Below, piece by piece: positions 802-21,270 of a stretch of 21,270 nt of DNA. The position numbers and the translations under genes were made by a program. Source of the stretch: a virus; the IMG/VR virus record IMGVR_UViG_3300029448_000040, positions 36,868 to 58,137 of that record. One strand, 5' to 3'. Each line of letters opens with the position of its first letter. Position 1 is the first letter of the stretch. Under the pieces are notes generated by a model, which was not told the origin of the DNA, ran no database searches, and saw nothing but the letters and a program-made list of their open reading frames with translations.

Positions 802-823
802 GTGTTCTCTCCTCTAGTCCTTT

Positions 824-831
824 TATTTATA
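824..831 (-). promoter_or_regulatory. Late promoter of gene 19
   Basis: A perfect TATAAATA lies on the minus strand (831 to 824), the sequence read by the gp55-type late sigma factor in T4. The expected start is near 818, giving a very short leader ahead of AGGAGAG and the ATG at 801. The TAA stop codon of the sheath gene (829-827) forms the centre of this box. Confidence 0.82.
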
Positions 832-2791: not shown

Positions 2792-2834
2792 TATTTTTCT
2801 CCTCAGAGGTCTGTATTATTCATCTTTACACCGA

Positions 2835-2842
2835 TATTTATA
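2835..2842 (-). promoter_or_regulatory. Late promoter of gene 18
   Basis: A perfect TATAAATA lies on the minus strand (2842 to 2835), in the 64-base gap between the terminase stop and the sheath start. The predicted start is near 2829, leaving a leader of about 38 bases with a GAGGAGA ribosome-binding site. It gives the abundant sheath protein its own late transcript. Confidence 0.85.
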
Positions 2843-2855
2843 AATTACATCTTTT

Positions 2856-6642: not shown

Positions 6643-6645
6643 ATC

Positions 6646-7383
6646 TTATCCCATAAAATCAGCAACTGGAAGTGAGTATGAACTAATCATCTCCTCTTCT
6701 AATTTATTGATTTCCTCTGTTGCCTCTTCCCATATTTTCTGCCCATTGAATGTGATACCACCGGGTAATTGCATCCCCTCAAACTTTTTCAGGTTTTCGC
6801 CCCACTGTCGCTTGATGAGTGCAGTGGCATAGCGTCTCAACCAAATATCACCATACACTTCGGTAAATGTATCTGGGTCAAGAATACGATAGCATTCAAT
6901 GATGAGAAACTCACCTGGGTTTTGCTCAAACAAACTATCTACACGCAGTTTATTGGTGTGACGAGAAAAACGAATGGGTTTCTTACCGACAAAGATTTCT
7001 TCAAGCATCTCAATATGACGCATCGCATTCACATAGGGCACATAGGTTGTGCTAGTGAAGTCAAACAAGTCGTTGAGATGAATTTGATAGCGAATGTTGA
7101 ATAGATTAGACGACTGAACTGCGTCACCGATGTCAAAGATATTGACGACACCAATCACAGCATCTGGTACTGTAATTTCATCAGATGCAATTTCGTCTGC
7201 GGTAAGTTGATGCTTGAGAAAGATTCGTTCAGTTCCATCAAAGTGATAGTCCTGATAGTATTCTAGTGCGTCATCAATGCGGTCATCGACTTGTTCATCA
7301 TCAACATTGATGTCTACAACTGGCGAACCTAATCTTCTGAGACAGTAATCTTTGAGTTGTTGTCTTGACGCTGGGACTGCCAT
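6646..7383 (-). CDS. gp13: Neck protein gp13
   Basis: This 245-residue protein forms the head-completion (neck) ring below the portal, with gp14. The N-terminus (RQQLKDYCLRRLGSPVVDINV, then DDALEYYQDYHFDG) and the C-terminus (RRYATALIKRQWGENLKKF, then LPGGITFNGQKIWEEATEEI) match gp13 of T4-like phages. T4 gp13 has 309 residues, so the central part is shorter here. The gene opens the neck-terminase-tail block. Its ribosome-binding site CGGAGAA lies within a predicted hairpin whose loop carries a perfect late promoter (listed separately), so translation may depend on which promoter made the transcript. Confidence 0.93.
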   Translation of the reverse strand: MAVPASRQQLKDYCLRRLGSPVVDINVDDEQVDDRIDDALEYYQDYHFDGTERIFLKHQLTADEIASDEITVPDAVIGVVNIFDIGDAVQSSNLFNIRYQIHLNDLFDFTSTTYVPYVNAMRHIEMLEEIFVGKKPIRFSRHTNKLRVDSLFEQNPGEFLIIECYRILDPDTFTEVYGDIWLRRYATALIKRQWGENLKKFEGMQLPGGITFNGQKIWEEATEEINKLEEEMISSYSLPVADFMG

Positions 7384-7434: not shown

Positions 7435-8424
7435 TTAGACCTGTTGTCCTTCCAATCGCTCTCTTGCCTGTGTAATATCACCGACATCTCTTGCATTTAC
7501 ATCCACAGCAAATGAAAACTTATCAATAGTGGTTATCCTACCTGATGCATCACCACCTGAAGCATATCCATTTTGAGTGGACGACTGTCCTGCTGGAGTA
7601 AAATTTTGTGTGGTCAAATCACCAACATCTGTCGCATTGGTGTCTGTCGCAAATGGAAATTTATCAATAGTATTGTATCGAGTGTTCGGTGGTATAAATC
7701 CACCACTGGAGTATCCACTTACATCTGAAGATTGTCCAGTGATCCCCGACCTTCCTTGAGTCAAATCACCAACATCTGTAGAGTTTGTATCAACAGAAAA
7801 TGGAAACTTATCAATAGTGTTTCCATTCGACCCCCCAGAAGAATATCCACTTACTGTCGATGATTGACCGGCATCGTATATTCTTGCTTGAGTTGAGTCG
7901 CCAACATCTGTCGCATTAGCGTCTACTGCAAATGGGAACTTGTCGATATTATTTACAGTAGGAGAAGCGGGCGGTGAAGAACCATTAGAAATATATCCGT
8001 GAGTTCTTGAGGACTGTCCAGATGCAGCACCTCTGTTTAGTGATAAATCACCGACATCTGAGGCATTTGTATCTACACTGAATGGAAATCTATCAATCGT
8101 GGAAACATCGGTCGATGAAGTGTAACCGCCAGAATTGTATCCACTCACAGAAGAGGATTGCCCCGCAGTTTTCCTTCTTGCTTGAGTCAAGTTACCAACA
8201 TCAACTGAATTATTTTCGGATGCAAAAGGAAACTTATCAATAGTGTCTACATCCCCTGGTCCATTATCACCACCAGAAGTATACCCACTCACACTACCTT
8301 GTATTCCATTTGTGCGAACAAACCCCGCAGTGTTTGCCTGACCAGTAAACTCAATACCCGTGTCAGTTTCTCTGAACTTGAAATTTCCGATCTGAATTGT
8401 TGTGGGGGTGATATTGATTGCCAT
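7435..8424 (-). CDS. Six-bladed Kelch-like repeat protein (propeller paralogue 8), probable adhesin
   Basis: This 329-residue protein has an N-terminal segment of about 46 residues (MAINITPTTIQIGNFKF...) and then exactly six repeats of 43-50 residues from residue 47 to the end. Each repeat runs GYxSGG, a variable loop of 4-14 residues, an IDKFPFATDTNATDVG-like stretch, DLTQAR, then AGQSS. The order matches the Kelch pattern (Y-x-x-G-G, then D/N-rich turn, then L-x-x-x-R). The last repeat stops at GQQV; the IQGSVS before repeat 1 could supply the closing strand of a six-bladed ring. Blade 5 has an aberrant TTQNF in place of TQAR. The N-terminus resembles those of the genes at 8424-9428 and 14235-15236. 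There is no signal peptide or membrane segment. A virion-surface or tail-fibre role is inference. Confidence 0.75.
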   Translation of the reverse strand: MAINITPTTIQIGNFKFRETDTGIEFTGQANTAGFVRTNGIQGSVSGYTSGGDNGPGDVDTIDKFPFASENNSVDVGNLTQARRKTAGQSSSVSGYNSGGYTSSTDVSTIDRFPFSVDTNASDVGDLSLNRGAASGQSSRTHGYISNGSSPPASPTVNNIDKFPFAVDANATDVGDSTQARIYDAGQSSTVSGYSSGGSNGNTIDKFPFSVDTNSTDVGDLTQGRSGITGQSSDVSGYSSGGFIPPNTRYNTIDKFPFATDTNATDVGDLTTQNFTPAGQSSTQNGYASGGDASGRITTIDKFSFAVDVNARDVGDITQARERLEGQQV

Positions 8425-9281
8425 TAGTTTTGTGCTCCCACTGAACTTGCAGTCGCCGCAAGCAAATCACCAACATCCTTCGCATTGACATCAGAGGAAA
8501 AAGGAATCTTATCAATTACAGTAGATTGAGAAGAGGGATCATTACCACCACTAGTATACTGGTTTGTAAGAGAAGACTGTGCAGACGCAAAATTTCTGGC
8601 GACAGTAAGGTTAGCAATATCTGTAGCATTAGTATCAGTTGCAAATGGTAATTTGTGAATTCTATCTACTTTAGTTCCTGCACCTGGATGACTGTAAGAA
8701 CCACCCATTACATATGCATTGACTGATGATTGCCCACCTACGCATTGTCGTAAAGTTCGTGATAAATCACCAACATCGGTTGCATTAGCATCTACCGCAA
8801 ATGGGTATTTGTCAATCGTATTACGCTCTGGAGACCAACCACCTGATGTATATCCATGAGTTCTAGAAGATGATCCAGCAGATAATACTCGTTCTTGGGT
8901 CAAATCTGCCACATTAGACGCATTTGTATCAGTAGCAAATGGGAACTTTTGAATATTGCCGGATGGTGAAGTGGGGTCGGGTGTACCTTGTGCATAACCA
9001 TGAGTATCTGAACTACTTCCAGTGTGATCTTTGGAGGCAGCAATGAGATTACCAACATCAGATGCGTCAGCATCAAGAGCATATGGAAACTTTTCGATAG
9101 TATCTACTGTTGATGGCGATGCCCCACCAGAAAAATATCCATGTGTTTTAGATGAAGCACCTGATGCTTGTTGTCTTGCTTGTGTTAGGTTAGCAACATC
9201 AGTAGTATTATTGTCTACAGCAAAAGGAAACTTCTGAATTGTATTAGTGATACTTGGGGCGTATCCACCAGACGCATATCC
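7438..9281 (-). repeat. Kelch-like repeat arrays of the left propeller pair
   Basis: Twelve units of about 130-155 bases (six per gene, 7438-8286 and 8427-9281) encode the propeller blades. The best-conserved DNA is the part encoding IDKFPFA, seen on the plus strand as variants of gcaaatggaaacttatcaat. The units are coding repeats, not spacer-separated elements. Confidence 0.85.
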
Positions 9282-9428
9282 AGAAATCTGACCTTGTACT
9301 CCTGGAGTTTTGTTATCAATAAACCCACGCTTGGCACGAATCTTACCATCAAAACTAAACCCTTCGGTATTCGCTGTCAGCGTAAAGTTACCAAAGTGAA
9401 TTGAAGTGTTGCTAATTCTGATGGACAT
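8424..9428 (-). CDS. Six-bladed Kelch-like repeat protein (propeller paralogue 7)
   Basis: This 334-residue member of the same family has an N-terminal anchor in residues 1-49 (MSIRISNTSIHFGNFTLTAN...) and six repeats from residue 50. It is more divergent than most: blade 3 has AQG in place of SGG, blade 5 starts AYVMGG, blade 6 starts QYTSGG, and the DLTQAR element is degraded in blades 2, 4 and 6. IQKFPFA, IEKFPYA and IHKLPFA variants replace IDKFPFA. The ATG at 9428 has a clear AAAGGAAAG ribosome-binding site just after the stop of a 43-codon gene. Its stop overlaps the next start (TAATG), coupling it to the following paralogue. Confidence 0.75.
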   Translation of the reverse strand: MSIRISNTSIHFGNFTLTANTEGFSFDGKIRAKRGFIDNKTPGVQGQISGYASGGYAPSITNTIQKFPFAVDNNTTDVANLTQARQQASGASSKTHGYFSGGASPSTVDTIEKFPYALDADASDVGNLIAASKDHTGSSSDTHGYAQGTPDPTSPSGNIQKFPFATDTNASNVADLTQERVLSAGSSSRTHGYTSGGWSPERNTIDKYPFAVDANATDVGDLSRTLRQCVGGQSSVNAYVMGGSYSHPGAGTKVDRIHKLPFATDTNATDIANLTVARNFASAQSSLTNQYTSGGNDPSSQSTVIDKIPFSSDVNAKDVGDLLAATASSVGAQN

Positions 9429-9437
9429 GACTTTCCT

Positions 9438-9569
9438 TTAGATTAGGTCATCAACAAGTTCTTTCAGCACACTATAAGCATCACGATCCGTTCTGTTGAG
9501 TTTTTCCAACAAGTCAGTCAACTCGTTGACTTCCATCTCAACGAGTTTCTGTGCTAACATTCTTTCCAT
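9438..9569 (-). CDS. Small acidic helical protein, 43 residues, unknown function
   Basis: This short open frame fills the gap between the 110-residue gene and the first propeller of the left pair. The product is leucine- and glutamate-rich (MERMLAQKLVEMEVNELTDL, then LEKLNRTDRDAYSVLKEL) and should form one or two amphipathic helices. Support comes from position: it starts 15 bases after the preceding stop, and its TAA is directly followed by AAAGGAAAG, which serves the next gene. Only a weak GGTAA precedes the ATG. A second in-frame ATG at 9560 has GGAAAG too close to be a good site. I do not recognise the family. A tail-associated or small chaperone-like role would be a guess. Confidence 0.6.
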   Translation of the reverse strand: MERMLAQKLVEMEVNELTDLLEKLNRTDRDAYSVLKELVDDLI

Positions 9570-9584
9570 TATGTATTACCGTTC

Positions 9585-9917
9585 TTATGAGTTCTTTGTG
9601 ACGAATGCGTCATACCAAGTTTCAGCAGTGGTTGTTACTTCTGTGTTTGACAACTCAACTGGTGTTTCATCTGGTTCGACACCTGTCATAAACGCATGAC
9701 CTTCGGTGTTGTGGATTGTCAACTGACGAGTCACGAACTCTGCCTTTGTCAAGGTTGTGACTGTATCAGGAACATAGTAGTCCCTAGCATCGTCAATCCA
9801 ACCGATGAATGATTTGTCAATAGGTGACTGCCAATGCCCCCGATCACCAATGAATTCAGGTACTGCTCTACGAGTACCGCCTTCGATACGGTGCATCATG
9901 TACTCTGCGACTGCCAT
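9585..9917 (-). CDS. Hypothetical protein, 110 residues, own late promoter
   Basis: This is a soluble, acidic protein with aromatic-rich patches (MHRIEGGTRRAVPEF, GDRGHW, SFIGWIDDARDYYVPD). I see no membrane segment or signal peptide and do not recognise a characterised family. Its ATG at 9917 has a strong GAGAGGAAG ribosome-binding site, and a perfect late promoter lies at 9966-9973, so it is probably made late and in quantity, as virion proteins are. It is followed by a 43-residue gene and two propeller genes that lack promoters of their own. It therefore heads a late transcript of four genes. A minor structural protein is the likeliest role, on context only. Confidence 0.72.
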   Translation of the reverse strand: MAVAEYMMHRIEGGTRRAVPEFIGDRGHWQSPIDKSFIGWIDDARDYYVPDTVTTLTKAEFVTRQLTIHNTEGHAFMTGVEPDETPVELSNTEVTTTAETWYDAFVTKNS

Positions 9918-9965
9918 TATTCTTCCTCTCCGTTGTTCGTTAGGATGTTTTCAATACAGTATGTG

Positions 9966-9973
9966 TATTTATA
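9966..9973 (-). promoter_or_regulatory. Late promoter of the 110-residue gene and left propeller pair
   Basis: A perfect TATAAATA lies on the minus strand (9973 to 9966), one base after the stop codon of the coiled-coil gene. The predicted start is near 9960, leaving a leader of about 43 bases to the ATG at 9917. No hairpin covering the ribosome-binding site is seen here. Confidence 0.83.
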
Positions 9974-9974
9974 A

Positions 9975-10958
9975 CTATTCTTCTTCGTCATCATCACGCA
10001 TTGTGTGTGGAAGTGCGAGTTTGTCTGTGTAAGACCAATCTTCGGATGGTTCTGGGTCATATCCCATCAGTTCCATACGCACATGGTCTACCTTGTGAAC
10101 TTCGGCAAGTTCTTCGGTCAATTGGTCAACAAACGCAATCAGTTCACGGTTGTCCCAATGCTCTTGCTCTGCTTCGGACGCAACATACTTCTGAATGAGT
10201 TTCTGAAGTTTCATCGGATTGACACCGATTTGCTCCACATACTCCTGCTCACCTTTTGAGATGCATCCGTACTGACGCACATCACGAATGGACTGAACGA
10301 TAGAACGCTTCAGGTGTGACTTGGTTTCTTCCTTTTCAACATCGTGTTCGTTGAAAGAGTTGACCTTGCCCTTGAGTTGTTCGTAGATTTCATTGAGTGC
10401 CATAACATCTTTCATCGCACCTTCAATGTACTTGGTTCCCTCAACCATACCTTCTTTGAGTTCGGCAAGTTTGATTTTGAGGTCAACTTCACGCCAATAG
10501 TCAATGTCCGTGCTATTGACAAGTTCATCTTCAATCTTACGAATCTTTGCTTCGTTCTTGACCTGTCGCCATTTTGCTTCGTTTAGTGCCGACTTCTTAC
10601 GAGCAATCTCTGCCGAAATCTGACGCATATTCTTCATCGGTGAATGGTACGAGAAGTTAATGTGCTTCCATGCCCACTGTGAGTGTGAGTGGTTCCAAAT
10701 GCTTTCCAACTGACCCACATTTTCCAATGCTTGGTCTACGAGTTGTGTGTTCTCGTTAAGTGTGCGACCCCCAAACGATGGGAGATTGCCTGTCGTGCCC
10801 CGACCAAATACCATCGCATTTGGTACTTTCATCTTTGCGGGATCAGACACCATCAGATTGGTGTTGGTACGAATCTCCTCAAAGATAGCAAGTGGTTTAT
10901 CTTGCTCTTCACTTTTCAACTGAAGTTCAGTCACTTTTTCGTTTGTCTTACTCGACAT
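9975..10958 (-). CDS. Helical, coiled-coil-rich protein of unknown function, 327 residues
   Basis: About residues 1-60 are polar and probably disordered, followed by a glycine-containing segment (VFGRGTTGNLPSFGGRTL). Then comes a long helical region, residues 110-250, with heptad-like runs (ARKKSALNEAKWRQVKNEAK, KIKLAELKEGMVEG). An EKEETKSHLKRSIVQSIRDVRQYGCISKGEQEY segment follows, and an acidic tail ends DDDEEE. From memory similar proteins are conserved in marine T4-like genomes, often as hypothetical or structural proteins; I cannot confirm this here. The ATG at 10958 overlaps the preceding stop (TAATG) and has TAGGAGAT upstream, so it is the last gene of the oxygenase cassette by coupling. 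It may nevertheless be an ordinary virion gene. Confidence 0.7.
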   Translation of the reverse strand: MSSKTNEKVTELQLKSEEQDKPLAIFEEIRTNTNLMVSDPAKMKVPNAMVFGRGTTGNLPSFGGRTLNENTQLVDQALENVGQLESIWNHSHSQWAWKHINFSYHSPMKNMRQISAEIARKKSALNEAKWRQVKNEAKIRKIEDELVNSTDIDYWREVDLKIKLAELKEGMVEGTKYIEGAMKDVMALNEIYEQLKGKVNSFNEHDVEKEETKSHLKRSIVQSIRDVRQYGCISKGEQEYVEQIGVNPMKLQKLIQKYVASEAEQEHWDNRELIAFVDQLTEELAEVHKVDHVRMELMGYDPEPSEDWSYTDKLALPHTMRDDDEEE

Positions 10959-12247
10959 TATTTGAATCTCCTAGACCCATGTATCCAAATCACAAGAGCG
11001 AACCGTTCACCCTTGCTAATATCAGTCACTGTATGTGGCATATAGGACGGGAACAAACTCACCGAACCTCGTTCTAATATACCCTTTACTTCATTACAGT
11101 GGTCATTCACAATCAACTCACATCCTTCATAATCTGTGGGGTTAGAGAGTTGTGCCGTAAATGAAATCTTCCGTGTCGCAGGTTCACCCCGACCCGCATC
11201 AATGTGCCAATCGTAGTGCCCTTTGATTTCTTCATCACAAGTGTAATGAATCAACTGAAGAGAATGCGTGATGCCAGTAATGTCATACTGAAAGTGTACC
11301 TTGTTGGCAACACCGACAATCTTCGCAACCTTTTCGTAGACCCACTTCCACTCATCATTATTCTCTATATTATATATGTCTGCTTTACGAATGTCTCTGG
11401 CAATACGAGAGTTGTCAGACGAACCACCGACAGACGCAGTAGATGGATACGAGTCCCGTGCCACCTGAATAAGACGGTCACACTCTTGGGGTGTAAACAT
11501 CAACTGTGGTAGATTCTCCGAAAAGATTGGGAAATATCCTGGGAAGAAGTCGTCTTCACTTGGAATCAAAGTCGCATTCGTAATCGGATTCTTGACTGAA
11601 ATATCCAACGGTTCAGGTTGTGGTTGCGTCAGCATCTGCTTGGGTTGCTCTACTTCAGCATTATTGCCTCGCAGATTGCCTTCAGACTTATCCATTCCGA
11701 TGCCCTTACGACCGTCAAATGCGTGGTCTGCGAACGGTCCATCGGCATCCACATAGTGTAAGAATACCTGACAGTGCCAGTTGCCCTTGAATGGTTTTCT
11801 CCAGTGTAGGACCTCACATCCTTTGTAGGCAACCATTTCACCGACTTCCATTTGAACCATCGTTTCTTTTTGTTCGTCCATATAGATTGGCCAGGAGTGC
11901 TTGGCATCCCAACCTAGTGTCAGTGTGGTTGAAATCTCACACGATGGGCGATCTTTGTGCTTCTTCAGCACATCACCCGGACGATAAATCCGTGCGTATG
12001 TGTAGGTAGGAAGCAGTCGTTTACCGATTTGCTTACCAAGTGGTTCGGCAAACTGCATCATCAGATTGTCAAATATCTCATCACCGTAGACCGCATCTGA
12101 TAGGGGGCATTGGTCATCTTTGACTAACGCACCTTTTTCATTCAAACTAAACATATGCTGAACGAGTTCATCACACTGCTGTTTTGTCAGTGCGTCTTTG
12201 AGTACGACATATCCATCTTTGTCAAATACTTCTTGGGGTGTCTTCAT
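10958..12247 (-). CDS. Tandem two-domain 2OG-Fe(II) oxygenase
   Basis: This 429-residue protein appears to be a fusion of two double-stranded beta-helix domains. The N-terminal domain (about 1-170) has a candidate HxD at His97-Asp99 and a distal His148 in the VLHWRKPFKGNWHCQVFLHYV segment. A Gln/Pro-rich linker at about 195-220 follows. The C-terminal domain (about 235-429) is of prolyl-4-hydroxylase type, with His348-x-Asp350 (HYDWHID), distal His405 (YMPHTV) and Arg415 ten residues later for 2-oxoglutarate. Both sites look intact. Likely chemistry is hydroxylation of a protein side chain or small molecule; the substrate is unknown. The start at 12247 overlaps the previous gene by four bases and has AGGTGAA upstream. 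Confidence 0.87.
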   Translation of the reverse strand: MKTPQEVFDKDGYVVLKDALTKQQCDELVQHMFSLNEKGALVKDDQCPLSDAVYGDEIFDNLMMQFAEPLGKQIGKRLLPTYTYARIYRPGDVLKKHKDRPSCEISTTLTLGWDAKHSWPIYMDEQKETMVQMEVGEMVAYKGCEVLHWRKPFKGNWHCQVFLHYVDADGPFADHAFDGRKGIGMDKSEGNLRGNNAEVEQPKQMLTQPQPEPLDISVKNPITNATLIPSEDDFFPGYFPIFSENLPQLMFTPQECDRLIQVARDSYPSTASVGGSSDNSRIARDIRKADIYNIENNDEWKWVYEKVAKIVGVANKVHFQYDITGITHSLQLIHYTCDEEIKGHYDWHIDAGRGEPATRKISFTAQLSNPTDYEGCELIVNDHCNEVKGILERGSVSLFPSYMPHTVTDISKGERFALVIWIHGSRRFK

Positions 12248-12795
12248 TTTTCACCTATATTAAAACTAATACTAATTCTTGGTTCGTCTGTTTGATTGGG
12301 TTCCACATAATGTTCTAACCAACTTGGAAACACAATACATGCCAATCGCTCTGGTTTGATACCATAGTTATTGTTTTTGATGACTGAATTGTGATTTCGG
12401 ACCGATGGGTCAACCAAAATCAAACGACCACTGTTCTCTGGCACTTGACAGTAATAAACTCCAGAGAGGACACCTTCATGCGTGTGGTGTGCGTTATAGT
12501 TATATTTAGTGTTGATATTCGCCCACATTGACTGAATTTCCATTCTTTTTGGAGTGTACTGTTCAGTGATACTTTCCATCGTTTTCATCAAACTAGAACA
12601 GAACTCCCGAAAGATGGGATGTGTGTGTAAGTCGTCCTTTGACTGCCATCCTCCAAAGTTTGACTTGGTTTCGCTTGGAGTCGTTTGTGACAATTCAATA
12701 ATGTAATCAGTGTAGTCAAATGTCTGATAGTTTGACTCACTGAAGATAAACCCCCAAACTGGGGTATGGAAAATGTTTTCCTGATTAGAGTGCAT
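12244..12795 (-). CDS. Putative 2OG-Fe(II) oxygenase of the TIGR02466-like type
   Basis: This 183-residue protein carries the recognisable run AHHTHEGVLSGVYYCQVPE (102-120), then GRLILVDP, then the C-terminal FPSWLEHYVEPN and PRISISFNI signatures. This pattern belongs to a family found in cyanophages and marine bacteria that is annotated as putative 2OG-Fe(II) oxygenase. Candidate iron ligands are within His103/His104/His106 plus the distal His162, with Arg173 for 2-oxoglutarate. The exact ligand set is uncertain because the usual HxD is not present. It opens with FHTPVWGF, typical of this family. The ATG at 12795 has AGGATGG upstream and overlaps the preceding gene by 11 bases. The substrate is unknown. 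Confidence 0.83.
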   Translation of the reverse strand: MHSNQENIFHTPVWGFIFSESNYQTFDYTDYIIELSQTTPSETKSNFGGWQSKDDLHTHPIFREFCSSLMKTMESITEQYTPKRMEIQSMWANINTKYNYNAHHTHEGVLSGVYYCQVPENSGRLILVDPSVRNHNSVIKNNNYGIKPERLACIVFPSWLEHYVEPNQTDEPRISISFNIGEK

Positions 12796-13378
12796 TACTA
12801 ATCCATCCTGTGATAATCAATTTGTCATCAGTTGGAGAAGGGCATCCCTTGTGGAGATGAGTCCATCCTGTGGGAAAAATCAGAGTCAATCCCTTGACAG
12901 GTCTGAACTTCAAGTTCTGAAACATAAACTGTGTTTCGCCCCCTTCTTCAACAGTATTGAGATAAGTCATAAAGACCATCTCCCTGTATGGACTGTCACC
13001 GACAATACCTCTGTCACAATGAATTTTGTGATACGCACCACCGCCCTTTGGATACCACTGAATATTGATGTGTTCTCGTATCCGTAGCGGAGGACCAAAT
13101 TCATCCAACCGAAAATACTGTTGATAACAGCGAACCACCTCATCTAATTGTGTTTGGTAGTTCTTCAACACATAGTTAGGTGGCAAGGATATATCATACG
13201 ACTCTTTTTTGCTTTTGTCAACACCTCCTGCGATGACTCCTTGATGTGGGTCAAGAACATTGAATGCTTGGATGACTTGATTACAGGCATCCTCACTAAT
13301 CATTGCCTTCGCAACAAAGGTAGGTTGACCGTTGACATTGACAGGTTCAAACGAGCACATCAGGGTAAAATCCTTCAT
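12785..13378 (-). CDS. PKHD-type 2OG-Fe(II) oxygenase (prolyl-4-hydroxylase-like)
   Basis: This 197-residue single-domain enzyme has the classic core: WYPKGGGAYHKIHCD with His120-x-Asp122, then FMTYLNTVEEGGETQF (136-151), then GLTLIFPTGWTHLHKG with distal His174, and Lys186 in the KLIITGW strand as the probable 2-oxoglutarate contact. These are the marks of the P4Hc/PKHD family, whose phage members are common in marine T4-like viruses; targets are mostly unknown. The first 80 residues are the usual helical support of the fold. The start at 13378 lies inside the end of the sulfotransferase gene (32-base overlap) and has no clear ribosome-binding site, so it probably depends on translation of the upstream gene. 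Confidence 0.88.
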   Translation of the reverse strand: MKDFTLMCSFEPVNVNGQPTFVAKAMISEDACNQVIQAFNVLDPHQGVIAGGVDKSKKESYDISLPPNYVLKNYQTQLDEVVRCYQQYFRLDEFGPPLRIREHINIQWYPKGGGAYHKIHCDRGIVGDSPYREMVFMTYLNTVEEGGETQFMFQNLKFRPVKGLTLIFPTGWTHLHKGCPSPTDDKLIITGWISNAL

Positions 13379-14177
13379 AGAACCATTTGTGGTTGGTAAT
13401 TACCTTGTTGTAGAAACCTTCGGACAGAGAGCGTGTGGGTTCCTTCCAAGGCATCAATTGGGGTTGAGTGTGGTGGTCTGTGCGTTCTCTAAAGTATGCG
13501 TGGTCATGCTCAAACAAATCGGACTGCTCGATGTGGTTCAAGTCGTGCTCGTAGTATGACAGTCCCAGAAACGCATAGATGTTCTGTAGCATCCCGTGTG
13601 GGTCTTTAAGTAAATCTTCGTACCGCACAAACTTGACACGAGATGGGTCTTGCTTGTATATTTCCATCAGTCTTGGAAGTTCTTGGTACAGACCCGCAGA
13701 GAATGCGTTGCCTTCCTTGAAGAAGTAGTCATACTTTTCTACTTCCATCATTGATGGATAGAGGTGTTGTGCGTCACCAAACGAGTGCAGTGCCTTGATT
13801 TTGGAGTTCACTCGCTCAAAACTTTCGATGATGTCTCGTATGTCACGCACACACGCAATCGTCTTGCTGTTCGGAAACAGATGATTGATGTCAGACCATC
13901 CTCTGTTCTTTGAGATGACGACAGGTTTGTCGGTCAGACCGTGAAACCAACCTTGGGATGCACCGTGGATAAGACCGTACATTGCGGCATCTGCTTGGTG
14001 TGTTGCCATTGCCTGAAAGCATTCACGAAACCGTGACTTGACAAGGATGTGGTCTTTGAGTAGAGTGGGAAGCGCACAAGTGCCCGTGGTGAACACTTGG
14101 GGGTTTTGCTGTAGAATATTCATTAGCACGGTGCTACCCGTTCGGGGTAGACCGCTACAGAAGTGGATTGTTTTCAT
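13347..14177 (-). CDS. PAPS-dependent sulfotransferase
   Basis: This 276-residue enzyme should transfer sulfate from 3'-phosphoadenosine-5'-phosphosulfate to a hydroxyl or amine. The 5'-phosphosulfate loop is at the N-terminus, SGLPRTGSTVL (8-18). The 3'-phosphate motif is at 110-120, VRDIRDIIESF, with Arg111 and Ser119 eight residues apart as in the family. A VRYEDLLKDP segment near 184-193 is also typical. Length is normal for bacterial and phage sulfotransferases, and both PAPS motifs are intact. The acceptor is unknown; cell-surface glycan, a small molecule or a virion protein are all possible. It is the first gene behind a consensus sigma-70 promoter and leads the oxygenase genes. Only a weak GTGAG precedes the ATG. 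Confidence 0.88.
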   Translation of the reverse strand: MKTIHFCSGLPRTGSTVLMNILQQNPQVFTTGTCALPTLLKDHILVKSRFRECFQAMATHQADAAMYGLIHGASQGWFHGLTDKPVVISKNRGWSDINHLFPNSKTIACVRDIRDIIESFERVNSKIKALHSFGDAQHLYPSMMEVEKYDYFFKEGNAFSAGLYQELPRLMEIYKQDPSRVKFVRYEDLLKDPHGMLQNIYAFLGLSYYEHDLNHIEQSDLFEHDHAYFRERTDHHTQPQLMPWKEPTRSLSEGFYNKVITNHKWFYEGFYPDVLV

Positions 14178-14204
14178 ACTATACTCACGAGTTGAAATAA
14201 TGAT

Positions 14205-14233
14205 ATTATACTAGATTAGGGTTGGGTTGTCAA
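14205..14233 (-). promoter_or_regulatory. Consensus sigma-70 promoter for the sulfotransferase-oxygenase cassette
   Basis: The minus strand has TTGACA (14233-14228), a spacer of exactly 17 bases, and TATAAT (14210-14205). Both hexamers match the bacterial housekeeping consensus without a mismatch. The expected start is near 14198, about 20 bases before the sulfotransferase ATG at 14177. The promoter fills the 57-base gap after the preceding propeller gene and is the only host-type promoter seen in a gap between genes here. It implies early, host-polymerase expression of the cassette. Confidence 0.88.
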
Positions 14234-14234
14234 G

Positions 14235-15236
14235 TTATACTTGTTGACCAGAACATCGTAATCTTGCTTGGAATAAATTACCGACATCAGAAGAATCTGA
14301 ATCAACAGCATATGGGAACTTTTCAATTACATTCAAATCTGTAGATGGTGCTGTATTCGTACCACCTGAAGCATAACCAGATGTAGTTGATGATTGACCT
14401 GCGTGGGAGTATTTTCCCTGTGTTAGATTACCAACATCTCCTGCATTATTATCACTAGAAAATATAAATTTGTCAATTGTGTTGGTAATCCCCGGTGATG
14501 CGGTGCTATAACCGCCAGAATTATATCCGTGAGTTGATGAGGAATGTCCTATAGCAGCATTTCTTGATTGTGTCAAGTCACCGACATCTGATGCGTTTGT
14601 GTCAATTGCAAATGGAAATTTATCAATTGTAACCACTCTAGGTGGAGCAAAACCACCCGATGAATATCCGTGAGTTGAAGAGGTATGACCCGAAAGATAC
14701 TGTCTTGCTTGCGACAAGTCACCGACATCTGACGCATTCGTGTCTGTTGCGAATGGAAACTTATCAATTGTGTTGAGTGTCGGATTTCCACCAGAAGTGT
14801 ACCCAGAAACTGTAGATTGTTGTCCTGCCACTTCCTTTCGTGCTTGACTCAAATTACCAACATCTGATGCATTAGTATCAGTCGCAAATGGAAACTTGTC
14901 AATCACATCAACAACATTAGAGGGGGACTCACCGCCAGATGTGTAACCATTTTCTGTAGAGGATTGTCCTGTTGATAGCATCCTATCTTGGAATAAATTA
15001 CCTACATCAGTCGCATTACCATCAGAAGTAAAAGAAAACTTATCAATTGTGTCAAGACGAGGTGTCGGTGAAGACAAACCTCCACTCGTATACCCACTCA
15101 CACTCCCCTGTGCTTGAGTCGCATCAACAAACTGACCGTTCGCAGTGAATGTACCGTCGATATAAATTCCGTCAGCAGTGTTTTGTATGCTGAAGTTTCT
15201 AAACTGGATTTTATCTTTGTTGATTTTTAGAGACAT
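14235..15236 (-). CDS. Six-bladed Kelch-like repeat protein (propeller paralogue 6)
   Basis: This 333-residue protein has an N-terminal anchor in residues 1-47 (MSLKINKDKIQFRNFSIQNT...), then six repeats of 45-50 residues that keep the family core well (IDKFPFATDTNASDVG in blades 2 and 3). Variants include HTSSTH and HSSSTH in place of QSST in blades 3 and 4. The ring would be closed by the AQGSVS stretch before blade 1 and the terminal SGQQV. The start at 15236 has AGGTGTA and lies two bases after the preceding paralogue's stop. The stop codon is followed at once by the -35 box of the sulfotransferase promoter, so this gene ends the right propeller block. The N-terminal anchor is closest to those of the two left-hand paralogues across the cassette. 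Confidence 0.76.
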   Translation of the reverse strand: MSLKINKDKIQFRNFSIQNTADGIYIDGTFTANGQFVDATQAQGSVSGYTSGGLSSPTPRLDTIDKFSFTSDGNATDVGNLFQDRMLSTGQSSTENGYTSGGESPSNVVDVIDKFPFATDTNASDVGNLSQARKEVAGQQSTVSGYTSGGNPTLNTIDKFPFATDTNASDVGDLSQARQYLSGHTSSTHGYSSGGFAPPRVVTIDKFPFAIDTNASDVGDLTQSRNAAIGHSSSTHGYNSGGYSTASPGITNTIDKFIFSSDNNAGDVGNLTQGKYSHAGQSSTTSGYASGGTNTAPSTDLNVIEKFPYAVDSDSSDVGNLFQARLRCSGQQV

Positions 15237-15238
15237 TG

Positions 15239-16243
15239 TTACACCTGTGTCCCAGAAGTTGCATCTTTTGCTTCAGTCAAATTACCAACATCTGTTATTG
15301 GCGTTTCGGCAGAAAATGGGAACCTTTCAATTGTGTTTACGAATGGTGGGTTATTACCACCGTTTGTATACCCATCTGTAGTAGATGAAGACCCAGATAA
15401 TCCATTTTTATCTTCTGATAAATCACCAACAAAAGTACCATCAATATCATTAGCAAATGAATATTTTTCAATCGCACTAATTCTTGGTGGCGGTACTCTA
15501 CCACCACTCACATATCCAGCAACTGTAGACGATTGACCCGCAGGATTTGTTCTACTAATCGCTAATGATGCTGTTGCTGTCGTTGATGTATCTGAAGCAA
15601 ATGGGAATTTTTCAATACTAGATTGTAGTGGGTCTGCGGAAGAACCACTAATACCACCCGCAACATAACCATTTGTTGCAGATGTTCCTCCAGCAGAACC
15701 ACCTTTTGCTGTAGTCATGTTAGCAACTAAACTTGTACCCACATCAGTAGCAAATGGAAACTTTTGTATATCGTCAGTTCTAGTTACAGGTACACTAATT
15801 CCACCACCTGATTGATATCCATCTGTGGTTGAGGACTGACCAGTTGTTTCAAATACATTGACATCCAAATCACCAATATTTGTTGCAGTGCCACCAGAAA
15901 TTGCAAAAGGAAACTTATCATTCACGATTGAAAGACCGGGACCTAGATATCCTCCAGATGCATATCCATTAGTTGCACTTGCATTACCTTCTTGTCCGGG
16001 TCCTCGTGCCTGAGACAAGTCCCCCACATCAGTGGCATTTGTATCTGACGAAAATGGATAACTTTCTATTTTTGTAGAGGCAGAAGGTGTCGCTCCACCA
16101 CTCACAAATCCTGATGTCTCACCTTGAAAATGAGAACCCGTGTCCTCAAACACCAACTGATTATTGACCGTCAACCCATTGAAAGTCGCAGAGAAGGTGT
16201 TGCTCGTGAAGATGTTGGTGTTGCCTACGGTGAAACCTGCCAT
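15239..16243 (-). CDS. Six-bladed Kelch-like repeat protein (propeller paralogue 5), divergent
   Basis: This 334-residue protein has an anchor in residues 1-44 (MAGFTVGNTNIFTSNTFSAT...) and six repeats. It is one of the two most divergent family members. The core becomes IESYPFSSDTNATDVG, IQKFPFATDVGTSLVA, IEKFPFASDTSTTATA and IERFPFSAETPITDVG. Blade 2 has the AISGGTA variant that also occurs in the gene at 17278-18306. The anchor resembles that of the 17278-18306 protein (VNGNTFIDNTGSAIFNANT), which suggests attachment to the same partner. The start at 16243 has AAAGGTA and overlaps the preceding stop (TAATG). Function as an adhesin is inferred. Confidence 0.74.
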   Translation of the reverse strand: MAGFTVGNTNIFTSNTFSATFNGLTVNNQLVFEDTGSHFQGETSGFVSGGATPSASTKIESYPFSSDTNATDVGDLSQARGPGQEGNASATNGYASGGYLGPGLSIVNDKFPFAISGGTATNIGDLDVNVFETTGQSSTTDGYQSGGGISVPVTRTDDIQKFPFATDVGTSLVANMTTAKGGSAGGTSATNGYVAGGISGSSADPLQSSIEKFPFASDTSTTATASLAISRTNPAGQSSTVAGYVSGGRVPPPRISAIEKYSFANDIDGTFVGDLSEDKNGLSGSSSTTDGYTNGGNNPPFVNTIERFPFSAETPITDVGNLTEAKDATSGTQV

Positions 16244-17274
16244 TACCTTTGACTCCCCTCTTCAGAACCCCTTGTTCTGGCAGCAACTAAATCACCGACT
16301 TCAGATGCATTTTCACTATCAGAAGCATAAGGAAATCTTTCAATTGAACTAATTGCACTTGGATTTTTACCTCCGGCAACAAAACCGTGGGTTGTGGAAG
16401 ATACACCATATGCTTGGTCTCGTCCATTGTTCAGTGAACCTACATTTGACGAATTTCCATCAGTAACAAAAGAAAACTTTTGATTGATGGTGTTGTAAGT
16501 CCCTGCCGGATGACTTCCACCTGTTGCCGCATACCCATGCGTTTCTGAAGATATTGATGCCGGACCTTTTACTGCTGTTCCTAAATCACCGACATCTCCA
16601 CCATCTCCTATATCATTTACAAAAGAAAAACTTTCTATGACATTGGTGACTGCGGTTGATGGAGAAGTAACTAATGCCCCAGACATATATCCTTTAGTAT
16701 CAGAAGAATGTCCACCATGCCTGTATCTACCTGGTGATGTCGTGTCGCCTGTTTTTACTGAGTTTGTATCAGATGCAAATGGAAATCTATCTATTTGTTG
16801 AGTAAACGATGGACCTAGATTACCTGACGCAGAATATCCATACGAATTCAGTAAAGAGGAATGACCACTTGGACCTTCTTTTGCTTGACTGATATCACCG
16901 ACATCAGATGCTCCAGCATCTGTAGCGAACGGAAACTTATCTATAACATTACTATCGGTAGGTCCGTCAGGTTGAAATCCTGCTGCTGTATATCCATGTG
17001 ACTGCGACGACTGCATTGAGTGATCAATTTTCAATTGTGTCAAAACACCGACTTCAGTTGCATTGGTAGAAGAGGCAAATGGAAACTTTTGGATTGATGC
17101 TCTTGGTACAGTATCACCGCCAGCAATATACCCACTAATCGTCCCTTGGAACCGAAACTCCACCGATGGGTCTTCGGGCATCACAAGATACGCACCACCT
17201 GTAAATGTGGTGTTCGCAAAACGACCCCGTAGGTCATCGGTAATTACGATTGTGTTTGCGACTTTCAATGACAT
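16243..17274 (-). CDS. Six-bladed Kelch-like repeat protein (propeller paralogue 4), divergent
   Basis: This 343-residue protein has an anchor in residues 1-47 (MSLKVANTIVITDDLRGRFA...) and six repeats. The diglycine is often lost: blade 2 has TAAG, blade 3 SASG, blade 4 MSGA and blade 5 AATGG. Blade 3 has an extra residue pair before GY, and blade 4 carries the insertion VNDIGDGGDVG. The N-terminal FQGTIS before blade 1 is identical to that of the 18779-20158 protein. The protein ends in an unusual charged stretch (RTRGSEEGSQR) in place of the usual GQQ ending, so ring closure may differ. The start at 17274 has AGGACT, three bases after the previous stop. Confidence 0.74.
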   Translation of the reverse strand: MSLKVANTIVITDDLRGRFANTTFTGGAYLVMPEDPSVEFRFQGTISGYIAGGDTVPRASIQKFPFASSTNATEVGVLTQLKIDHSMQSSQSHGYTAAGFQPDGPTDSNVIDKFPFATDAGASDVGDISQAKEGPSGHSSLLNSYGYSASGNLGPSFTQQIDRFPFASDTNSVKTGDTTSPGRYRHGGHSSDTKGYMSGALVTSPSTAVTNVIESFSFVNDIGDGGDVGDLGTAVKGPASISSETHGYAATGGSHPAGTYNTINQKFSFVTDGNSSNVGSLNNGRDQAYGVSSTTHGFVAGGKNPSAISSIERFPYASDSENASEVGDLVAARTRGSEEGSQR

Positions 17275-17277
17275 ATC

Positions 17278-18306
17278 TTAGTCCTGTTGTCCCGCACCTT
17301 GACTTCGTGCTACAGTCAAACTACCTACATCTGATGCGTTAGTGTCGGTTGCGAATGGATACTTTTGTATCATTCCCATTTGATTAGGTGCGGAATACCC
17401 ACCCGTCACATAACCGTGTTCTCTAGAATTCTGACCAGATGAATTGTTTAGAGTATCAACTAGGTTCCCCACATCTGTGGCATTCGTATCAGATGCAAAT
17501 GGAAACTTATCAATTGTATCGGTTTCTGCGGGTCCCGCATCACCACCTGACGCATAACCATTATTTTTAGATGACTGCCCAGAAACAGAACTTCTTGCTT
17601 GAGATAAGTCTGCTATGTCAGTTGCATTAGTATCAGATGCGAATGGAAACTTATCAATAACATTCAATGCTCCTGGCGCACTACCACCCGATACATAACC
17701 ATCATTTTCAGATGAATGTCCTGCAACACTAGTTTTGACTGCGGTCAGATCACCGACATCTGAAGCAGTTCCGCTACTAATGGCAAATGGAAACTTATCA
17801 ATAGTGTTTACACGACCCGGTGGAGGTGACTCTCCCCCTGATGTATATCCATCTGTTGACGATGACTGCCCCGATCCACCTCTCCTTTCTAAAGAAATAT
17901 CAGCAACATCAGTTGCATTTGACGTAGAAGAAAATGAAAATTTATCAATAACGTTTAGAGTTGACGGGGTTACTGGTGCATACAAACCACCAGTGACAAA
18001 TCCATCAGTATCTGACGACTGACCCGCAACTAATCGTTTTGCTGATGTTAGATTGCTGTGGTCTACCGCAGTGAGTTCGTTTGCGAATGGAAACTTGTCA
18101 ATGACATTCGTTTCTACAGGAGGTGAACTTCCGTCATTACCACCCGCAGTAAATCCGGCAACAGTGCCTTGCATCGGAGAGGTTGACTCTCGTGACACAA
18201 AGGGTGTTAATTGCACCGAAAAGTTATTGGCAACAATGGTGTTTGCGTTAAATATCGCACTACCTGTATTGTCAATAAAGGTGTTGCCGTTAACTTGAAA
18301 TCCCAC
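17278..18306 (-). CDS. Six-bladed Kelch-like repeat protein (propeller paralogue 3), GTG start
   Basis: This 342-residue protein starts at GTG (18306) with a good GGGAGAC ribosome-binding site that lies inside the last codons of the S74 gene. The anchor is residues 1-50 (MGFQVNGNTFIDNTGSAIFN...), ending MQGTVA, and six repeats follow. Blades 4-6 keep the family core closely (IDKFPFASDTNATDVG). Blade 1 has an aberrant ANELTAVDHSNL, and blade 3 the AISSGTA variant shared with the 15239-16243 protein. The end GAGQQD matches the GQQ endings of other members. It lies three bases behind the chaperone gene, so the two are co-transcribed and probably co-translated. Confidence 0.76.
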   Translation of the reverse strand: MGFQVNGNTFIDNTGSAIFNANTIVANNFSVQLTPFVSRESTSPMQGTVAGFTAGGNDGSSPPVETNVIDKFPFANELTAVDHSNLTSAKRLVAGQSSDTDGFVTGGLYAPVTPSTLNVIDKFSFSSTSNATDVADISLERRGGSGQSSSTDGYTSGGESPPPGRVNTIDKFPFAISSGTASDVGDLTAVKTSVAGHSSENDGYVSGGSAPGALNVIDKFPFASDTNATDIADLSQARSSVSGQSSKNNGYASGGDAGPAETDTIDKFPFASDTNATDVGNLVDTLNNSSGQNSREHGYVTGGYSAPNQMGMIQKYPFATDTNASDVGSLTVARSQGAGQQD

Positions 18307-18309
18307 GGG

Positions 18310-18738
18310 TTAGTCTCCCGCTAACTCAAGTGCTTCCACTCGTCTTTGAAGTTCTTTGTTTGCCTCAACCAAATAGGCAATCAATCCCAAGTATTTGAGA
18401 TACTTGACATCCTTGGTTTCGTCATGCTCAACCAACTCTGGTACAATCTTTTCAACCTCTTGTGCGATTAGACCGTATGCCCTTTCGCCATTCTCAATCC
18501 AATCAAAGGATACACCTTGGAGTTGGTTGATGACTGTGGTTGCGTCTGTCAATGCCTGAACATTCTGCTTGAGACGAACATCAGAAGTTGAGTTGAAGTC
18601 AACTGCGTTGATTTGCCCACCAGAAGTCACCGTGATATTGTTCGCAGTGACAATCATATTCGCAGTGCCAGACGGTGAGAATTCCATATTCTCGTTTGCT
18701 TGGGTGCTCGTGAAATTTTTTACAGCGATTGTGCTCAT
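18310..18738 (-). CDS. Small fibre-like protein with S74 intramolecular chaperone (endosialidase-type autoprotease)
   Basis: This 142-residue protein has a short N-terminal part (1-50) resembling the beta-rich anchors of the neighbours (SPSGTANMIVTANNITVTSG). From residue 52 it has an S74 domain. The marks are SDVRLKQNV, with the Ser52 and Lys57 expected for self-cleavage, then FDWIENGERAYGLIAQEVEKIVPELV, then KYLGLIAYLVEANKELQRRVEAL, the C-terminal trimer helix. S74 domains fold and trimerise the fibre to which they are fused, then cut themselves off. Here the mature product would be only about 51 residues, which is very short. It lies among the propeller genes and may chaperone a mini-fibre or act in trans. 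A GAGGTC ribosome-binding site precedes the ATG. Confidence 0.88.
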   Translation of the reverse strand: MSTIAVKNFTSTQANENMEFSPSGTANMIVTANNITVTSGGQINAVDFNSTSDVRLKQNVQALTDATTVINQLQGVSFDWIENGERAYGLIAQEVEKIVPELVEHDETKDVKYLKYLGLIAYLVEANKELQRRVEALELAGD

Positions 18739-18763
18739 CGTTGACCTCGTGAATTCTTCCTAC

Positions 18764-18770
18764 TATTTAG
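18764..18770 (-). promoter_or_regulatory. Possible late promoter of the S74 gene
   Basis: CTAAATA lies on the minus strand (18770 to 18764) in the 40-base gap between propeller paralogue 2 and the S74 gene, about 26 bases before the ATG. It matches seven of the eight late-box positions less the first base and has a C in place of T or A. It is the same variant as that ahead of the portal gene. Confidence 0.45.
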
Positions 18771-18778
18771 CATTCTTT

Positions 18779-20158
18779 TTAGTGTTGTTGACCCGCACCT
18801 TGATCTCTTGCTTGTGTCAAGTCACCTACATCTGTTGCATTTGTATCTGTCGCAAATGGAAACTTATCTATCGTAACCACAGTTGGGGGTGCGTTACCAC
18901 CCGATGTATAACCGTTCACAGTTGATGATTGACCTGCATTATTTCTTCTTGATTGCGTTAGATTACCAACATCTGTTGCGTTTGTATCAGTAGCAAATGG
19001 GAATTTATCAATAGTATTCAGTGCGCCTGGAGAATAACCACCAGAAGTATATCCGAATTCAGTGGACGATTGCCCTGCTGCTTGAGTTCTTGCTTGTGTC
19101 AAATTGCCAACATCTGTAGCATTCGTGTCGGTCGCAAATGGAAATTTATCTATAATATTTTGTGTTGTTGGAGGTGGCGAATTATATCCACCCGATGTAT
19201 ATCCGTGTGTGGTTGATGATTGTCCTGTGGCAAATACTGAAACTCTAGATAAATTAGCAATATCAGTTGCATTTGTGTCTGTAGAAAATGGATATTTATC
19301 AATTGTATTAAACTGACTAACGGGGTCATTACCGCCAGATACATATCCATTTTCAGTAGACGATTGTCCTGCAACAAATCGTCTTGCTTGTGATAAATTA
19401 CCAACATCCACGGCATTAGCATCTACTGCGAATGGAAATTTATCAATAACATCTGCACCTGGAGCATAACCACCTGAAGTATACCCACTAATTTCTGAAG
19501 ACTGCCCCGATGCTGCTCCTCTTCCTGCGGTGAGATCACCAACATCTGTCGCATTAGCATCTGAAGCAAAAGGATACTTATCTATCGTATTTCTACCAGG
19601 TGCACCACCACTCGTATATCCACTAATAGTTCCTTGGAATTTTGGAAGTGTGGTCTCTTGTTGCTTGCTCACCCAACCCGTGCCAGTATAGAACAACTTC
19701 ACACTCTCACGGTCTGTTGTCAGAGTCAGTTTCCGCACACCCCCATCAATCGTTTGAGTGGATGTACCGTTGGCAATAAAGATGTTGTTAGACGAACAGA
19801 ACCCTTCGTTGTCAATGACTTGAATGGTGTCACCGACATTCGCAGAAGCAGGGAGTGTCAGTGTCAAATCTGACTGACCACGAGTGTTCGCAAAGTAGTT
19901 CCGATTGATTGTGAGTGTGGTGTTGGAGTTGACAATATCCCACTTGTGAAGTCCTTGAACCGCACCTTCCAATTTAGTCGCACCACCAAATTTGAGTGAA
20001 CTACCCCCTTGACTGACAGTCAACAACGAACCATCAGACACCACGACATTACCCGATACATCAGGGAGCAACTGATATCGTGTAGAGTTGGTATTGGGTG
20101 CTGTGATTTTGACTTCACCAATACCAGAGTCGTTTGGTTTGACGATAAGTTTACTCAT
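18779..20158 (-). CDS. Tail-fibre-like N-terminal domain fused to a six-bladed Kelch-like propeller (paralogue 2)
   Basis: This is the longest complete family member, at 459 residues. Residues 1-178 form a larger anchor than in the others. They include the LTLTLPASANVGDTIQVIDNEG stretch (98-119) and the LTTDRESVKLFYTGTGWVS stretch (146-164), a module often found in phage tail fibres, where it forms a small beta domain. FQGTIS (174-179) leads into six highly regular repeats; blades 4, 5 and 6 each contain the identical IDKFPFATDTNATDVG. The end is GAGQQH. The ATG at 20158 overlaps the preceding stop (ATGA), with AGGTAAT upstream. The tail-fibre module strengthens the adhesin interpretation for the family. 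Confidence 0.8.
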   Translation of the reverse strand: MSKLIVKPNDSGIGEVKITAPNTNSTRYQLLPDVSGNVVVSDGSLLTVSQGGSSLKFGGATKLEGAVQGLHKWDIVNSNTTLTINRNYFANTRGQSDLTLTLPASANVGDTIQVIDNEGFCSSNNIFIANGTSTQTIDGGVRKLTLTTDRESVKLFYTGTGWVSKQQETTLPKFQGTISGYTSGGAPGRNTIDKYPFASDANATDVGDLTAGRGAASGQSSEISGYTSGGYAPGADVIDKFPFAVDANAVDVGNLSQARRFVAGQSSTENGYVSGGNDPVSQFNTIDKYPFSTDTNATDIANLSRVSVFATGQSSTTHGYTSGGYNSPPPTTQNIIDKFPFATDTNATDVGNLTQARTQAAGQSSTEFGYTSGGYSPGALNTIDKFPFATDTNATDVGNLTQSRRNNAGQSSTVNGYTSGGNAPPTVVTIDKFPFATDTNATDVGDLTQARDQGAGQQH

Positions 20159-21270
20159 ACTTGATTACCTGACACAAATTTTCTTGTTCCACTAAGATTA
20201 CCAACATCGGTGGCATTAGCATCTGAAGCAAATGGAAACTTGTCAATCACATCTATATCTCCAGGATTTTGCCCACCACTAGAATAACCATTAGAGATTG
20301 ATGAATGTCCCGCATTATTGTATCGTGTTCCAGTTAGGTCTCCAATATCAGTAGCATTAGCATCAGTAGCAAAGGGAAACTTATCGATAATATTTGTAAA
20401 TGGGGGAGCATCTCCACCAGCAGTATATCCAGAAACTGAAGATGAGCAACCACCGCCATTTTGTCTATTACCACTCAAGTCGGCAATATCTGTTGAATTA
20501 GTATCTGTGGCAAATGGAAACTTTTCAATTTTGTTTCCTACTGCGGGTCTTGGACCTCCTCCGCAAGCATATCCATTTACGGTGGATGATTGTCCCATTG
20601 TACCATACCGACCTGATGTCAAATTACCAACATCAGTCGCATTCGTGTCAACAGAAAACGGAAACTTATCAATAGTATCCAAATATCCACCCGCAGGGGG
20701 AGGGGTATATCCACCAGTGGCATATCCACTAACTTCAGATGATTGCCCCGATGGTCCTTGTCTTCCTATTGTCAAATCACCAACATCTGTTGCATTTGTA
20801 TCAACAGCAAATGGAAACTTATCAATATTTACCGACCGTAAAGTTGGTGGTGGTGACTCACCACTATAACCACCTGAAGTGTATCCCGAAACAAGAGAAG
20901 ATTGACCTGCCGCTTGTTGTCTACCTTGAGACAAATCTCCTATATCAGTAGCATTTGTATCCACCGCAAATGGAAATTTGTCAATAGTTGTTTGTCTGCC
21001 CGTAGTATACCCAAAACTCTCACCCTGTGCCTGTGTACCAAAGAACCGACCTTCTGTCTTTTGCTCTCGTGACACAAACCCAATATCGCCAGACACATAC
21101 ACCAACTCCACACCGTCTCTGTCAGTGCTAATCACCACATTACGGTCAAACCCATCAATCTTGTTGCCGTTGCGTGAAATCGTCACCACATTTGCAGACG
21201 CATGTCCTTCGTTGTCAAACACCCGAATCGTGTCGCCAATGTTTGCGGTTGCGGGTAGAGTGAGTGTCAG
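20155..21270 (-). CDS. Tail-fibre-like/Kelch-like propeller protein (paralogue 1), 5' end outside the window
   Basis: The reading frame stays open to the right edge. A GTG at 21222 could be taken as start, but the 16 codons upstream read LTLTLPATANIGDTIR, nearly identical to residues 98-113 of the next paralogue, so the true start lies beyond 21270. The visible part has the tail-fibre module (RVFDNEG, then ISTDRDGVELVYV), a QGESF linker and six repeats (from 21012). Blade 1 is short (GYTTGRQTTIDKFPFA), and blade 2 has a long SGESPPPTLRSVN loop. Two cysteines occur in blade 4 (GYACGG and GGGCSSS). The end is SGNQV. The stop overlaps the start of the next gene. Confidence 0.8.
   Translation of the reverse strand: MTLTLPATANIGDTIRVFDNEGHASANVVTISRNGNKIDGFDRNVVISTDRDGVELVYVSGDIGFVSREQKTEGRFFGTQAQGESFGYTTGRQTTIDKFPFAVDTNATDIGDLSQGRQQAAGQSSLVSGYTSGGYSGESPPPTLRSVNIDKFPFAVDTNATDVGDLTIGRQGPSGQSSEVSGYATGGYTPPPAGGYLDTIDKFPFSVDTNATDVGNLTSGRYGTMGQSSTVNGYACGGGPRPAVGNKIEKFPFATDTNSTDIADLSGNRQNGGGCSSSVSGYTAGGDAPPFTNIIDKFPFATDANATDIGDLTGTRYNNAGHSSISNGYSSGGQNPGDIDVIDKFPFASDANATDVGNLSGTRKFVSGNQV

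Follow-up and report, generated by a model that had tools for sequence, protein, structure and literature searches.

Six-bladed Kelch-type propellers with a hypervariable face, encoded as an eight-gene array in a T4-like virus and probably serving as adhesins

The window studied here, that is, the whole stretch of DNA that was analysed, comprises the final 21,270 bases of a virus record that is 58,137 bases long. It raises the question of why eight genes in one phage locus encode the same repeat exactly six times each, and what their products do. The minus strand carries most genes of the window. In order of increasing position, a T4-like virion block is followed by two of the repeat genes (K1 and K2), two ORFs without assigned function, three oxygenase genes, a sulfotransferase gene, K3-K6, a Peptidase_S74 ORF, K7 and K8. 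The array therefore begins beside the neck gene gp13, in a late virion cluster with gp13-gp19 nearby. The features are as follows:

238..7383, minus strand: T4-like virion block, with tail tube and sheath (both named by sequence and gene order), terminase gp17, a small ORF, the gp15 sheath stabiliser and the gp14 and gp13 neck genes
7435..8424, minus strand: K1, 329 aa, six-bladed propeller protein whose blades begin at residues 47, 95, 143, 193, 237 and 286; phrog_19111, E 5e-25
8424..9428, minus strand: K2, six-bladed propeller protein, 334 aa; six HMM domains of 47-77 bits
9585-9917 and 9975-10958, minus strand: two ORFs of 110 and 327 aa, recurring in the propeller loci of relatives
10958-12247, 12244-12795 and 12785-13378, minus strand: three 2OG-Fe(II) oxygenase genes (domain scan)
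13347..14177, minus strand: sulfotransferase gene adjoining K3 (domain scan); relatives abut propeller genes in other loci
14235..15236, minus strand: K3, six-bladed propeller protein, 333 aa (blade HMM; AlphaFold2 model)
15239..16243, minus strand: K4, six-bladed propeller protein, 334 aa (blade HMM)
16243..17274, minus strand: K5, six-bladed propeller protein, 343 aa, the most divergent (blade scores of 23-63 bits; identity to the other seven 34-44%)
17278..18306, minus strand: K6, six-bladed propeller protein, 342 aa, GTG start (blade HMM)
18310..18738, minus strand: Peptidase_S74 (chaperone-of-endosialidase) ORF, 142 aa, between K6 and K7; PF13884, 5e-16; a domain of phage tail fibres
18779..20158, minus strand: K7, 459 aa, an N-terminal domain of about 170 aa followed by a six-bladed propeller (blade HMM, AlphaFold2, PHROG)
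20155..21270, minus strand, open: K8, six-bladed propeller truncated at its 5' side by the contig boundary (blade HMM)

The initial annotation had described K1-K8 as eight paralogues of six repeats each that fill more than a third of the window. A blade HMM found exactly six repeats of about 47 aa in every one of these minus-strand ORFs (23-88 bits per blade), the truncated K8 included, and together the genes make up about 40% of the window. The repeat consensus of K1-K8 is GYxSGG-x(n)-N-x-IDKFPFASDxNATDVGDLTxARxxxAGQSSxxx. Because identity between paralogues within the propeller is just 34-58%, the six blades found in all of them do not result from recent duplication. Seven of the eight proteins matched phrog_19111, a family without functional annotation (E 5e-14 to 4e-27), and K5 had no match to it. 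Scans of Pfam and NCBIfam returned no Kelch family above threshold and only spurious sub-threshold matches, and no effector domain was found in the propeller proteins by the Pfam scan. The N-terminal domain of K7 has a weak likeness to tail fibres (phrog_972, tail fibre, 3e-8; phrog_9648, tail, 5e-8). K8 has no real start in the window, since its frame is open to the contig end, and the residues upstream of its apparent ATG (LTLTLPATANIGDTIRVFDNEG) match the N-terminal domain of K7.

The terminase was found to be nearest to those of Synechococcus phages, at 57-60% identity (59.6% for S-SRM01), and a megablast of the window against phages gave no matches. Judged by its terminase rather than by a host gene, this virus of aquatic bacteria is probably a T4-like, cyanophage-related phage with Synechococcus phages as its kin. 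Matches to bacterial genomes were confined to six contigs, four of them from one MAG; these could be binned phage contigs and did not enter the host assignment.

The fold was studied by structure prediction. The AlphaFold2 model of K3, computed with 99 relatives in the input, is a closed six-bladed propeller with a mean pLDDT of 93, rising to about 98 within the propeller. The same propeller was obtained for K7, mostly at pLDDT above 90, and the 170-residue N-terminal part of that protein was poorly predicted. When the K3 model was compared with the PDB by Foldseek, the best matches were all six-bladed Kelch domains (the designed protein SAKe6, KLHL12 and KEAP1), with E values from 2e-20 to 1e-18, target-normalised TM scores of 0.85-0.93 and rmsd of 1.9-2.6 A. 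The closed Kelch-type ring suspected from the repeats alone was thus recovered. An independent sequence-profile search of the PDB returned Kelch proteins exclusively, in register over profile positions 46-306, although the best E value, 5e-4, was weak. Across 1046 blades, the double glycine that closes strand B is present at positions 5 and 6 of the repeat in 95% and 97%, respectively. The eukaryotic KEAP1 and KLHL12 and the designed SAKe6 share with K1-K8 six four-stranded blades, this double glycine after strand B, a pocket side formed by the BC and DA loops and a fold match over the full length. However, sequence identity to them is only 16-20%, K1-K8 carry no BTB/BACK fusion, and their pocket loops are hypervariable. 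The conserved Tyr and Trp that mark classical Kelch repeats were also looked for, and no Trp was present in the blade consensus. Because of this and the lack of a Pfam Kelch match, the family is assigned to the Kelch fold and not to the canonical Kelch repeat.

As to ring closure, the initial annotation had noted that the last unit stops short and had attributed the missing strand to an N-terminal QGxxS segment. The first observation holds, since the last unit of the propellers is truncated and ends in GQQV or a similar motif, but the second was not borne out by the models. Both show a strand of four residues where strand A would be expected, made by the C-terminal GQQV (in K7, GQQH), and QGxxS contributes a bridge residue only. 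Read from the secondary-structure string of the models rather than from coordinates, the ring-closing strand appears to be the C-terminal one.

To what extent six is a fixed number was assessed from relatives. Six blades were counted in 173 of 186 complete genes, a non-redundant set drawn from 65 IMG/VR loci, S-SKS1 and one single-cell phage. Pairwise propeller identity among the relatives ranges from 26 to 99.7% with a median of 57%, and therefore they are not a set of recent copies. The exceptions are mostly distant members whose blades are partly seen by the profile, or frameshifted records. One complete relative (L055:1857-2894) has five strong blades and may be either a true exception or a case of a repeat collapsed in assembly.

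The S-SKS1-type relatives provide the decisive test of the ring because they are longer. Hypothetical proteins of phage S-SKS1 (SWZG_00001, 00287, 00289 and neighbours) and proteins of Marine virus AG-345-L05 and AG-345-O18 consist of homologous repeats (about 27-34% identity); each chain has 12 or 18 blades and so two to three rings, where K1-K8 have one. A scan of viral_contigs with the AG-345-L05 protein found no relatives. Among 92 complete genes from 73 further marine loci, 12 blades were counted in 70, 24 in five, 18 in four, six in three and another number in ten, that is, 82 of the 92 counts are multiples of six. With refined profiles, the odd-count genes L154 and one of L163 rose to 11-12 blades and L176 to 30, and part of the ten odd counts is accordingly due to detection losses; L152 and one ORF of L131 remained at seven, and a few diverged ORFs stand outside the count. 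Of the 79 proteins whose blade count is 12, 18 or 24, 68 have their longest steps from one repeat to the next precisely behind each sixth blade, where chance would place the boundary of a 12-blade protein in 1 case in 11. The median step is 59 residues at these boundaries versus 48 in other positions. Two S-SKS1 genes encode six blades, a spacer (GGASERIKGSRTY) and six blades, and each half flanking the spacer can be read without a frame break in one gene or more, despite frameshifts elsewhere in the record. The gene that runs across the record ends shows six blades, a spacer and then an uncertain five to seven, and was left out of the count. The AG-345-L05 and AG-345-O18 proteins have 18, 18, 18 and 12 blades, and reading by eye agreed with the profile count. 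Because the counts fall mostly in sixes and a spacer follows every sixth blade, these chains are whole rings strung together. As far as the sequences indicate, then, the length of the family changes mostly by whole rings. The expectation that the repeat number does not vary freely in homologues was thus upheld.

Several marine proteins carry additional parts. A 12-blade AG-345-L05 protein (L003:21838-24585) has a LamG-like domain, recognised by eye, between its two six-blade blocks. About 230 extra C-terminal residues follow the 12 blades in L129:2793-5342, L125:7792-10383, L174:7456-10083 and L175:1577-4168. L107 and L110, like S-SKS1, have three 12-blade paralogues distinguished by the short N-termini GIFGLDRVYKKQVQN, IFSLNEVRTEQIKN and DVFGLTSIYERQVEN.

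The distribution of sequence change over the blade was studied in 31 close pairs. Changed positions amounted to 60% in the BC loop and 71% in the core of the DA loop, whereas they made up 4-10% in the strands and 13% in the CD loop. The dN/dS ratio was 1.34 in BC (95% interval 1.02-1.74), 1.01 in DA and 0.08-0.09 elsewhere; the intervals are approximate, as the pairs have sequences in common and there are indels in the BC loops. For the nine closest pairs, the ratios came to 1.36, 0.81 and 0.09-0.14, respectively. Blade entropy exceeds 3 bits at positions 7-9, 12-13 and 38-40 and is mostly below 1.5 in the strands and the CD loop, with the AB loop intermediate (2.1-2.9 bits). In Kelch domains, the BC loops frame the ligand pocket and the DA loops form its floor (PMC7333892, PMC6650413). 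The propellers thus combine variable contact-side loops with a conserved scaffold, a feature of the adhesin type. The simplest reading is a fast-evolving binding face displayed on a conserved scaffold, in the manner of an adhesin. The variability of the loops could also stem from a lack of constraint rather than from selection, since a dN/dS near 1 fits both. A diversity-generating retroelement was considered as a source of the localised hypervariability and appeared unlikely, because no reverse transcriptase (PF00078) was found in 14 records, some of about 200 kb and most of them fragments (the present one included).

Starting from the computed fold, blade number, concatenation in sixes, hypervariable face and position in the late virion cluster, we consider it probable that K1-K8 are virion-borne, fast-evolving six-bladed Kelch-type adhesins of a T4-like, cyanophage-related phage. 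The late virion cluster, the neighbouring Peptidase_S74 gene and the fibre-like N-terminus of K7 all point to the virion. In such a scheme, the closed ring would fix the blade number, and the N-terminal 45 or so residues, or the longer fibre-like domain in K7 and K8, would attach the propeller to the particle. The ring face made of BC and DA loops would bind structures on the host-cell surface. Several paralogues with 12 fast-changing loops per face would amount to an adhesin repertoire, the loops diversifying by ordinary mutation while the scaffold stays constant. The adhesin family proposed initially is therefore backed by hypervariability confined to the ligand-binding face of the Kelch fold, and its placement on the virion and its binding role stay presumptive.

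A rather unlikely alternative is that the propellers are structural or decorative parts of the virion, such as neck or tail whiskers or head decorations, which mainly protect the particle or bind loosely to environmental material such as mucus or polysaccharide and are not host-specific receptor binders. The start of the array beside gp13 suits this reading. Copy number, moreover, differs between relatives, the larger freshwater-type records holding about 6 to 13 propeller matches each, and the Kelch-like CBB_552 is a virion protein of phage CBB, which has unexplained tail whiskers (PMC5259590). However, the restriction of change to the ligand side of the Kelch fold, at a dN/dS of about 1.0-1.3, fits selection for binding better. 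It is improbable that the propellers work within the host during infection, where they would capture or displace its proteins in the manner of the Kelch proteins of poxviruses. Although ubiquitin-ligase adaptors bind their substrates through Kelch domains of this fold, the scan revealed no effector domain in the propeller proteins, late virion genes and a gene for a fibre chaperone domain surround them, and eight rapidly varying paralogues suit surface contacts better. An enzymatic function (galactose-oxidase-like, sialidase-like or otherwise glycan-active) seems slightly more improbable still: propeller folds are common in glycan-active enzymes, and the viral fold library includes phage propellers labelled galactose oxidase, but the top fold matches are non-enzymatic Kelch domains, and it is the loops of the pocket face that vary most, unlike a catalytic site. 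Finally, that six is an accident of common descent, with a repeat number free of any ring constraint, can hardly be maintained, since, although all members are related by descent and the repeats within a gene are similar, six prevails among the 186 complete relatives, length shifts mostly by whole sixes and the predicted structure is a closed ring.

Adhesins of this kind may be modified by a product of the same locus. In 37 of 41 cases, no more than 200 bases separated the sulfotransferase gene from a propeller gene; among the remaining ORFs of these loci, 27% lay that close (Fisher p 5e-16, uncorrected for shared ancestry; loci including L001, L003, L005, L111 and L112). In S-SKS1, AG-345-L05 and AG-345-O18, the gene stands between or beside propeller genes, and these three propeller carriers are among just 10 of 50,697 phage records with relatives of the sulfotransferase. 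Others, those of S-SRM01 and S-SCSM1, sit in unrelated neighbourhoods. The nearest solved structures include protein-tyrosine sulfotransferases, at a weak E value of about 0.005. By the argument of gene linkage, the enzyme may modify the propellers. A more far-reaching scheme, which we regard as speculative, is a repertoire of variable receptor modules, in which about 6-13 Kelch rings per genome (in the marine phages, strings of 2-5 rings per chain) would each carry a mutable pocket, and the adhesin face would be modified by the sulfotransferase before virion assembly.

A special linkage between the 2OG oxygenases and the propellers was also considered and was dropped: the oxygenases are common in the loci, yet adjacency was 21% versus 27% for other genes. 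The two ORFs at 9585-9917 and 9975-10958, which had no Pfam or PHROG match, recur in 36 and 37 loci (the window included), about half of the freshwater-type propeller loci.

Kelch proteins of phages have been recorded before. Phage CBB encodes three Kelch-domain proteins (CBB_550, 552 and 554), one of which was detected in the virion by mass spectrometry (PMC5259590). They are phage-encoded propellers like K1-K8 and appear in the viral fold search; however, their Kelch signatures are recognised, they are distant in sequence, and neither an array of 6-13 copies nor concatenated rings was reported for them. Cyanophage P-HM2 was noted to have a Kelch-repeat protein (PMC3037559), and an enrichment of Kelch repeats has been described for marine long-read data (PMC9238414). 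A literature search, mostly without subscription papers, found no description of a multi-copy paralogous array, of concatenation in sixes or of a hypervariable face. The initial statement that no comparable phage system is known may stand for an array of this six-quantised, hypervariable family and does not stand for Kelch proteins in phage virions as such. A propeller platform serves in host recognition in the receptor-binding protein of Staphylococcus phage phi11 as well, a five-bladed, trimeric single protein that is not known to form a paralogue array.

With these results, an uncharacterised protein family found in aquatic T4-like phages gains a fold and a testable role. The relatives also supply a natural test in which ring closure, and not descent alone, sets the repeat number, as lengths change almost only by whole sixes. 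The fast-changing loops are where host-range determinants should be sought, and the linked sulfotransferase gene leads one to ask whether adhesins are sulfated by the phages that encode them.

Two minor observations concern the neighbours and the relatives. Two of the three oxygenases of the window were compared with known enzymes and showed a weak likeness to prolyl 4-hydroxylases or PKHD hydroxylases; the BC loops of the propellers are proline-rich. In S-SKS1, the propeller genes (L001, which is NC_020851.1, record positions 201,800-206,400; L002:1-1226) are broken by frameshifts and by the record ends, and some stretches are unannotated. These breaks are likely sequencing or assembly errors in the repeats.
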